A stretch of DNA of 64,000 nt from Aggregicoccus sp. 17bor-14 (GTDB lineage: Bacteria; Myxococcota; Myxococcia; Myxococcales; Myxococcaceae): positions 62,001 through 126,000 of the forward strand of contig NZ_VJZZ01000011.1 in the NCBI RefSeq assembly GCF_009659535.1, in the 5' to 3' direction. Positions 26,002 to 37,056 of this stretch are shown piece after piece (within the stretch, counting starts at the first letter, position 1; each line of letters opens with the position of its first letter). A model generated the notes under the pieces. That model worked only from the letters and a program-made list of their open reading frames with translations, was not told the DNA's origin and made no database searches. A program made the position numbers and the translations under genes.

Positions 26002-31299
<5,298 letters not shown>

Positions 31300-34547: not shown

Positions 34548-35702
34548 GTGAGCTCCTCCCTTTCCCAGCGCCTGCAGGCCTCGCTCGCCCGGGCGCTCGG
34601 GGTGAGCCGCGTGGCGCGCATCACCGGCCTGGACCGCACGGGCGTGGAGGTGGCCTGCGCGGTGCGCCCCGGGGGCCACGTGCTGCAGGTGTGCAACGGC
34701 AAGGGCCCCCGCTGGGAGGAGGCTGCGGCCGGGGCGCTGCTGGAGACGGCGGAGCTGTGGGCGGCGGAGCGGGTGCGGCCGGAGCAGCTCGTCTGGGGCT
34801 CGGAGGCAGAGCTCGAGGCCGCCGGGCTCGAGGCCTGGCCCGCGCCGGAGCTGGGCTCTGCGGGCGGTGCACCCGTGGCGAGGCTGTGGAGCCGGGACGT
34901 GCGCCTCGCCTGGCGCGAGGCGAGCGAGCTGCACACCGGGCGCCCCGTGCTGCTGCCCGCGCAGGCGGTGCACTGCCCGCCCGCCGGCACCCCGCCGCTC
35001 GGCCCCCTGAGCATGGCGTGGACGAGCAACGGCTCGGGGGCTCACCCCGAGCGCGCCCGGGCGCTGCTGCACGCGCTGCTCGAGGCCACCGAGCGCGACC
35101 AGCTCTCGCGCACCCTTCCCGAGGGCTGGACGGAGGAGGCCATCGCCGAGCGCCTGCTGCGCCCGGCTTCGCTCTCCACCCACGCACCGCGCGTCGCAGC
35201 GCTGGTGCAGAGGCTGGAGGCGGCGGGCTTTCGCGCGCACCTCTTCGATCTCTCGCCACCCGCGCGCACGCCCGGCGCTGTGCGCCTTCCCGTGGCCGGC
35301 GCGCTGCTGGTGGACGAGGAGGAGGGGCCCGTGCCACTCACCGCGGGCTACGCGTGCGCGCTGGGCCGCGAGGGGTCGCTCCTGCGCGCGCTGCTCGAGG
35401 CCGCGCAGAGCCGGCTCACCGACATCCACGGCGCGCGCGAGGACATCGCCGCAGCGGACCGCGAGGCGGCGCGCGCGCTCGCGCAGGCCTGCGCTCAAGC
35501 GCGGGCACGGGCCGAGGTGCGCGGGATGCCGGAGCTCGCGCTGAAGCGGGAGGACCCGGCGGCCGCGGTGAAGGGCGTGCTCGCGCGGCTGCGCGCTGCG
35601 GGCTTCGAGGAGGTGGCGGCGCTCTCGCTGGACGCGCCGGTGGAGGGGCTCAGCGTGGTGCGCGTGGTGGTGCCCGGCATGCAGGTCTCGGAGCTGCTGT
35701 GA
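34548..35702 (+). CDS. YcaO domain protein paired with TfuA
   Basis: A 384-residue YcaO enzyme. The ATP/Mg-binding segments are present: ALLETAELWAAERV, SNGSGAHPERARALLHALLEATERD and SRLTDIHGAREDI. YcaO enzymes activate backbone amides by phosphorylation; together with TfuA they exchange oxygen for sulfur and make thioamides, known in thioviridamide-type RiPPs and in methyl-CoM reductase of methanogens. The C-terminus lacks the PxPxP of azoline-forming members, in line with a TfuA partner. Its TGA overlaps the GTG of tfuA. An in-frame GTG at 34536 is an alternative start. No Shine-Dalgarno is seen. No obvious precursor peptide lies adjacent, so the substrate is unknown. Confidence 0.9.
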   Translation: MSSSLSQRLQASLARALGVSRVARITGLDRTGVEVACAVRPGGHVLQVCNGKGPRWEEAAAGALLETAELWAAERVRPEQLVWGSEAELEAAGLEAWPAPELGSAGGAPVARLWSRDVRLAWREASELHTGRPVLLPAQAVHCPPAGTPPLGPLSMAWTSNGSGAHPERARALLHALLEATERDQLSRTLPEGWTEEAIAERLLRPASLSTHAPRVAALVQRLEAAGFRAHLFDLSPPARTPGAVRLPVAGALLVDEEEGPVPLTAGYACALGREGSLLRALLEAAQSRLTDIHGAREDIAAADREAARALAQACAQARARAEVRGMPELALKREDPAAAVKGVLARLRAAGFEEVAALSLDAPVEGLSVVRVVVPGMQVSELL

Positions 35703-36862
35703 AGCGTCCCGCGTCCCTCGTCGTCTTCGTCGGCCCTTCGCTCTCCGCGGACGAGGTGCGCGCGCTAGGCCCCTGCACCCTGCGGCCGCCGGCGCGCCAG
35801 GGGGACGTGTGGCGCGCGCTCGCCCTCGAGCCGCGCGCCCTGGTGCTGCTGGACGGCGTCTTCGAGGCGCAGCCCTCGGTGTGGCACCACGAGCTGCTCG
35901 CGGCGCTGGAGGCCGGGGTGGCGGTGTTCGGCGGCTCGAGCATGGGCGCGCTGCGCGCCGCCGAGCTCTCCGCGCACGGCATGGTGGGGGTGGGGGACAT
36001 CTACGAGGGCTTCCGCTCGGGCCGCCTCGTGGACGACGCGGAGGTGGCGCTGCTGCACGCGGACGCGGAGCACGGCTACCGCGCCCTCACCGTGCCGCTC
36101 GTCAACGTGCGCCACAACGCCGCCCGCGCGCAGGCCGCCCGCGTGCTCGATGGGCGCGAGGCCCGCGGGCTCGTGGAGGCGGGCGCGGAGCTCTTCTACC
36201 AGGAACGCCGCTGGCCCCAGGTGGTGGCCGCCGCGGCCGCGCACTGGCGCCCCGCCACGCGCGCGCGCTGGGACGCGTGGGTGCAGCGCGCCGGCCTCGA
36301 GGACCTCAAGCGGCTGGACGCGCTGCGCTGCCTCGAGGCGGCCCACGCCTTCCTCGCCTCGGGCGCGCCCGCGCCGAGGGGCGCGCCCCAGCGCCCCTCC
36401 TCGCTCGTGCGCCGGCGGCGGCTGCAGGAGGGGGCGGTGCAGGTGGGGGAGCGCGCGGTGGTGGGAGCGGAGGTGCTCGCGCTGCTGGACACCCATCCGG
36501 ACGCGGCCGCCCTCACCGAGGTGGGGCTGCGCCGCGCGCTGCTGGCCGGCTGGGCGCGCACCCTGGGCCTGCAGCCCACGGCGCAGGAGCTCGCGCGCAC
36601 CGAGGCGGCGTGGTGGGCGGGGCTCGGCGTGCCCGAGTCCAGGCGCGAGGCCTTCCTCGCCGAGAGCGGCCTGGATGCGGCCGAGCTGCGAAGGCTGCTG
36701 GAGGAGCGGGCGCTGGAGACGCTCGTGCTCGCGCACGCCGAGCGCCTGCTGCCGGATGGGCCCTCGCCCCGCGAGGCGCTGGGCAGCGAGGCGCGGCTGC
36801 GTGGGTTGTGGGCCGAGGCGGCGCGCGCGCTCGCACGCCCCGCCCGACGGCGGCGTCGCTAG
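35699..36862 (+). CDS. TfuA-like protein
   Basis: A 387-residue protein whose first 220 residues match the TfuA-like core: SLVVFVGPSLSADEV, VLLDGVFEAQPSVWHHELLAAL, VFGGSSMGALRAAEL, GDIYEGFRSGRLVDDAEVAL. TfuA is thought to help sulfur delivery or enhance the YcaO reaction in thioamide formation. The C-terminal 160 residues are helical and have no family I recognise, longer than minimal TfuA. The GTG start overlaps the ycaO TGA, so the pair is translationally coupled and probably acts as one enzyme. Its stop overlaps by 4 nt the stop of a small convergent gene. Confidence 0.9.
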   Translation: MKRPASLVVFVGPSLSADEVRALGPCTLRPPARQGDVWRALALEPRALVLLDGVFEAQPSVWHHELLAALEAGVAVFGGSSMGALRAAELSAHGMVGVGDIYEGFRSGRLVDDAEVALLHADAEHGYRALTVPLVNVRHNAARAQAARVLDGREARGLVEAGAELFYQERRWPQVVAAAAAHWRPATRARWDAWVQRAGLEDLKRLDALRCLEAAHAFLASGAPAPRGAPQRPSSLVRRRRLQEGAVQVGERAVVGAEVLALLDTHPDAAALTEVGLRRALLAGWARTLGLQPTAQELARTEAAWWAGLGVPESRREAFLAESGLDAAELRRLLEERALETLVLAHAERLLPDGPSPREALGSEARLRGLWAEAARALARPARRRRR

Positions 36863-37056
36863 CGCCGGAGCGCGTCCGGCCCGCGGAAGAGCGCGCCCTC
36901 CAGGCGATCGAGCGCCTGGCGCCCGGGGCTCTCGGGCTCCGGTGTCTCGCACTGCCGGCAGCGCCAGCCGGTCTCCAGCTGGGCCTCCAGCTCCTCCCAC
37001 GGCTCGTGCTGCGGGGGGTGCGCCTCCGGTTCGGGACGCGCGTCGCTCGGGTCCAT
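36859..37056 (-). CDS. Small acidic CxxC protein next to tfuA
   Basis: A 65-residue protein with a strong ribosome-binding site (GAGGAGG, 5 nt before the ATG), so it is probably a real gene although short. The N-terminal half is rich in Pro, Glu and His; a single CRQC pair sits at about residues 33-36, followed by ETPEPESPGRQALDRLEGAL. It could be a half zinc ribbon that dimerises. As the only small gene touching the YcaO-TfuA pair, it is a candidate substrate or accessory factor, though its opposite orientation argues against this. No named family is recognised. Confidence 0.6.
   Translation of the reverse strand: MDPSDARPEPEAHPPQHEPWEELEAQLETGWRCRQCETPEPESPGRQALDRLEGALFRGPDALRR

Follow-up and report, generated by a model that had tools for sequence, protein, structure and literature searches.

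The locus lies within the window, by which we mean the whole stretch of 64,000 nucleotides that was analysed, and consists of two genes on the forward strand. The first, ycaO (34548-35702), starts with GTG and encodes a YcaO-domain ATP-dependent amide-activating enzyme of 384 aa. The second, tfuA (35699-36862), encodes 387 aa, and its GTG start sits on the ycaO stop codon in a 4-nt GTGA overlap (35699-35702, + strand) that, as read from the sequence, couples the translation of the two genes. YcaO matches Pfam PF02624 over model positions 1-325 of 325 (E 1.2e-53, 183 bits against a cut-off of 25.7), and TfuA matches 118 of the 119 model positions of PF07812 (E 6.7e-42, 142.5 bits, cut-off 30). 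The coordinates, the strand and the full Pfam matches bear out an earlier note on this DNA, which had described two overlapping full-length YcaO and TfuA genes. Nor had the note seen a transporter, a protease, a radical enzyme or an evident precursor beside the pair, and this is true of the immediate flanks. Upstream lie a peroxiredoxin and a DUF2378 protein; downstream there is an unconserved 65-aa ORF, along with a ROF-like ORF and a gene for a DNA methylase. The genome (6.9 Mb, 99.95% complete) carries a single YcaO and a single TfuA. Elsewhere in the window, positions 26002-31299 encode a protein of 1765 aa that is conserved in Myxococcaceae loci. It carries UvrA interaction and DNA-binding domains as well as ABC ATPase segments that repeat, and apparently joins two UvrA-like halves into one chain.

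Of the 115 good-quality genomes from the order Myxococcales, 96 have a YcaO related to that of the window and 95 have a TfuA. The YcaO scores are bimodal, with nearly complete orthologues at 300-588 bits and paralogues at no more than 209 bits; setting aside four genomes with a paralogue alone, orthologues are present in about 92 of the 115. Myxococcus xanthus (locus L096) is among the carriers of the pair. Outside Myxococcales, the phylum sample contained just two genomes with a match to the YcaO, both at the paralogue level, and in a scan of 84,980 species genomes the strong matches all came from Myxococcales, save one 'Comamonas' record. That record (L087, labelled Comamonas sp. KCTC 72670) looks contaminated or wrongly labelled, since its YcaO shares 67% identity with that of the window, as in Myxococcus. 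Among the few distant relatives outside the order, Acanthopleuribacter pedis (L150) has an apparent TfuA-YcaO fusion in a single 905-aa frame. A tree that also took in paralogues and E. coli YcaO unites the orthologues in one clade (SH-aLRT 99) on a long stem branch of 1.37 changes per column, and within this clade the Myxococcaceae proper, the window's copy among them, group together (support 99). The dN/dS values are 0.13-0.31 in most Myxococcaceae pairs, both for ycaO and for the two parts of tfuA, while the higher values in more distant pairs are affected by saturated dS. Taking the distribution, the single clade and the dN/dS values together, we read the pair as vertically inherited under purifying selection. 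Its conservation throughout the order Myxococcales means that the pair is no isolated case, and the term orphan used in the earlier note needs adjusting.

Gene families were clustered over 40 orthologous loci, namely 39 fetched loci and the window. Beyond single lineages only ycaO and tfuA recur, and the flanks differ lineage by lineage; the in-frame 4-nt overlap is present in 35 of the 40 loci, the window's included. Four complete genomes of the Myxococcus clade, congeneric with Myxococcus relatives that have the pair, lack ycaO-tfuA in a neighbourhood that is otherwise kept in order (a DUF2378 protein, a peroxiredoxin, then a kinase, a methylase and others). At the gap in these four genomes homology picks up again within the final ~30 bp of tfuA, and no remnants of ycaO or tfuA were found. 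Since the four gaps are 89-94% identical to one another, one deletion event is likely. The genes on either side lie outside the system because they are kept where ycaO-tfuA alone is missing, and the same four genomes make the pair dispensable. That it is confined to one order, lost in one clade and absent in several instances likewise indicates that it is not essential. The peroxiredoxin, the DUF2378 protein, the kinase and the methylase, being lineage-specific and retained where the pair is lost, were rejected as parts of the system. A SUI1/YciH-like gene shares 1-4 nt with the end of tfuA in four of eight loci of family f3 (L066, L068, L069, L079). The family of this gene is present in 31 of 33 genomes whether they carry the pair or not, and so does not co-vary with it; the gene was therefore rejected as a partner and probably belongs to a lineage-specific operon. 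The search for co-occurring genes that had been proposed as a check was thus carried out on the neighbours at the 40 loci, and no partner gene emerged from it. The close relatives that lack the pair offer a clean route to its target by proteome comparison.

Then, where is the substrate encoded? No conserved small ORF was found near the 40 orthologous loci, ORFs of less than 30 aa being poorly covered, and no export or protease genes common across lineages are linked to the pair at these loci. The convergent 65-aa ORF downstream (36859-37056) was considered as a precursor and dropped, as it has no relative at any other locus. As a positive control, the same clustering was applied to 20 further loci picked for paralogous YcaO-TfuA pairs. 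The paralogous cassette found in this way (L157-L173, L176) contains a Ser/Thr kinase of ~1130 aa in 15 of 20 loci and, in 14 of 19, a protein of ~190-440 aa with a C[FYIV][LV][LV]NL motif, often directly upstream of ycaO (for example L158:6105-6761, adjoining ycaO-tfuA). The motif protein is likely a protein-sized substrate family of the paralogous pairs, and these kinase/substrate-like cassettes may represent a new kind of thioamidated product. Having found a substrate-like gene in 14 of 19 paralogous loci, the clustering could have detected a linked precursor. No motif protein lies at the orthologous loci, and in a profile search the family was confined to paralogue-bearing genomes and was not found in 17 genomes with the core pair only, the window's own included, which removes it as a target here. 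The lineage-specific flanks, the clean two-gene deletion and the missing paralogue-type substrate agree with two earlier suggestions, that this is not a typical peptide cluster and that the target is probably encoded elsewhere in the genome.

A substrate encoded elsewhere might still be a peptide, in which case the pair would modify an unlinked RiPP precursor in a split-gene pathway of natural-product biosynthesis. Bacterial YcaO-TfuA pairs are mostly regarded as RiPP enzymes, and genome mining has counted Corallococcus pairs as thioamidated RiPP clusters (PMC8120280), a count that may or may not include this orthologue. We nevertheless consider a RiPP substrate rather unlikely, given the lack of a conserved small ORF near the 40 loci and of linked export or protease genes common across lineages, and given a vertical inheritance where RiPP clusters are usually distributed patchily.

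The 40 orthologous YcaOs were aligned with 30 paralogues, E. coli YcaO (EcYcaO) and, from its residue 121 on, the methanogen YcaO MJ1094, whose structure 6pe3 is the nearest solved one to the window's YcaO (E 3.1e-13). In EcYcaO we take E75, E78, E199, E202, R203, E290, Q293 and R295 to be the Mg/phosphate-type (Mg-ATP) residues, their roles reportedly going back to Dunbar et al. 2014. The equivalents of all eight are conserved without exception in the 40 orthologues. A further three positions, N187, E191 and R286, presumably belong to the nucleotide site as well and have an ATP-binding role. The equivalent of N187 is kept in none of the 40 orthologues (33 have P; P167 in the window), that of E191 in three (R171 in the window) and that of R286 in five (R280 in the window copy); P167 and R171 fall within 35046-35060 on the + strand. 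The two reference enzymes, MJ1094 and E. coli YcaO, keep all three, and so does every one of the 30 paralogues. The orthologues also share the clade-wide features SNGxGAH, HGARED and a C-terminal SELL (35688-35699, + strand), the last near-invariant in the clade and missing from the paralogues. The check for a loss of essential ATP-binding residues, which the earlier note had named as evidence against its proposal, gave a mixed outcome: the Mg/phosphate-type Glu and Arg residues are in place, whereas the equivalents of N187, E191 and R286 are eroded. Owing to this erosion ATP use may differ in the clade, and the eroded positions may reflect changed nucleotide binding or changed chemistry. Taken further, the altered site could point to another backbone reaction, with a different activation, a hydrolysis or a non-thioamide product, and with TfuA merely as a partner. 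The loss or variation of the three positions in 35-40 of 40 orthologues, the long stem branch and the clade-wide motifs speak for such a change. The invariance of the Mg/phosphate-type residues and a TfuA domain that is intact and under selection speak against it, and on balance we find it improbable.

TfuA divides into two parts in its AF2 model (mean pLDDT 89). The catalytic-type domain, residues 1-222 (35699-36364, + strand), has its nearest solved structure in the TfuA of M. acetivorans (6xp8, E 8.4e-29), and residues 5-222 align with it at a VIA-align Z of 28.9 and an rmsd of 1.7 over 215 residues. The C-terminal domain, residues 229-387 (36383-36859, + strand), is helical and modelled with a pLDDT of 92.7. 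At Z of at least 5, every PDB entry listed for it is a chaperone of the SurA/PrsA/PEB4 type (highest Z 6.9), and in Foldseek SurA ranks first (9hga_F, prob 0.94, E 0.06). E. coli SurA and PpiD gave no significant sequence score against the profile of the domain. As the Z values (under 8) and the E value are modest and the profile-to-sequence test does not pick up SurA, we claim for the model a weak resemblance to SurA/PrsA chaperone domains only. A related domain forms the C-terminus of the long paralogous TfuAs (hhalign P 5.5e-5), and thus the domain is not unique to the clade. These 160 residues, formerly called unexplained, are now partly accounted for by the resemblance to helical SurA/PrsA domains and the kinship with long TfuAs.

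The best NCBIfam matches of both proteins are the methanogen McrA-thioamidation models. Against TIGR03266 and NF033432 the pair reached 114.9 of 365 and 176.5 of 235.2 bits, below both equivalog cut-offs, and McrA (PF02249) was not found in the pair's own genome by a search that was positive in two methanogens. A second candidate among cellular proteins is ribosomal protein uL16, an unlinked target that E. coli YcaO can modify (PMC13063428). As uL16 is universal it would account for the unlinked substrate, and its thioamidation is established for Pseudomonadota (PMC13063428). However, uL16-type YcaOs are acidic and have no TfuA nearby (PMC13063428), whereas here tfuA adjoins and the pI of the YcaO is 6.0 (5.3-11.1 among orthologues, 4.38 for EcYcaO). 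The window YcaO also gave no match to NCBIfam NF040716, against which EcYcaO scores 917 bits. With the pI and equivalog tests both against it, uL16 was set aside as a very unlikely target. The eroded ATP-motif positions and the losses in several lineages might suggest that what is left of an old RiPP cluster is decaying here with no present function. This is hardly credible in view of the low dN/dS of both genes (about 0.13-0.25 in most close pairs), the intact frames, the invariant core motifs and a coupling conserved across the order.

The explanation we favor, at a probability of about one half, is a stand-alone, ThiS-fed thioamidation pair of Myxococcales that acts in trans on a cellular protein. 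The reaction to be expected from the YcaO-TfuA family is an ATP-dependent activation of a backbone amide, with sulfur delivered via TfuA from a ThiS-type thiocarboxylate (PMC5589413, PMC13063428), and from this family we infer the thioamide chemistry of the myxobacterial pair. Most likely, YcaO would act with Mg-ATP on a single backbone amide of a cellular protein whose gene lies elsewhere, phosphorylating the amide oxygen. TfuA would then free sulfur from a thiocarboxylated carrier of the ThiS/MoaD type that belongs to primary metabolism, and so give rise to the thioamide; three ThiS-family genes are present in the same genome. The probable task of TfuA's SurA/PrsA-like C-terminal domain is to hold on to the substrate chain or to dock the two enzymes. 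We infer a protein substrate modified in trans because the pair is a conserved stand-alone unit, has no linked substrate and is closest to the McrA-modifying pair. That a YcaO can act on an unlinked protein of the cell is shown by the E. coli enzyme (PMC13063428). More tentatively, and with somewhat less than even confidence, the pair could constitute a second bacterial protein-thioamidation system beside that of uL16, one that is order-wide, depends on TfuA, has an altered nucleotide site and a chaperone-like domain for holding the substrate, and introduces a backbone thioamide, or a change related to it, into a cellular protein.

YcaO-TfuA pairs as such are already known, and those of Corallococcus have been mined as RiPP clusters (PMC8120280). 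Our literature search found no description of an order-wide stand-alone class or of a natural two-gene deletion, nor of the eroded positions in the nucleotide site, the SELL signature at the YcaO C-terminus or the contrast with substrate-linked paralogues. In the same search McrA and uL16 were the only cellular proteins with a backbone thioamide. A conserved stand-alone pair, together with relatives lacking exactly these two genes, could help to find a third, and genome mining may miscount such stand-alone pairs as peptide clusters.

Among known systems, thioamitide-type RiPP clusters (thioviridamide, TfuA-related) share with the myxobacterial pair the YcaO-TfuA combination and a presumed backbone thioamide, whereas the myxobacterial pair has no linked precursor, tailoring or export genes, is vertically inherited and occurs in single copy. 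The E. coli YcaO/uL16 system is similar in being a stand-alone YcaO with no linked precursor and a cellular protein as target; it differs in that it has no TfuA, is very acidic, belongs to another NCBIfam equivalog and is very distant in the tree. The paralogous myxobacterial cassettes have the same gene order, the overlap and a long TfuA with a related C-terminal domain, but they form a separate clade with the kinase and the C[FYIV][LV][LV]NL protein alongside, and their YcaOs have N187, E191 and R286 intact and no C-terminal SELL. The methanogen pair that modifies the McrA glycine (6pe3/6peu, 6xp8) differs in that the myxobacterial TfuA has the extra 160-residue domain, three nucleotide-site positions are changed, and the myxobacterial genome has no McrA and scores under the equivalog cut-offs. 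It is nevertheless the closest in sequence and structure, with the same two enzymes and the same stop/start overlap (PMC5589413), and it acts in trans on a protein rather than a peptide, as we propose for the myxobacterial pair.
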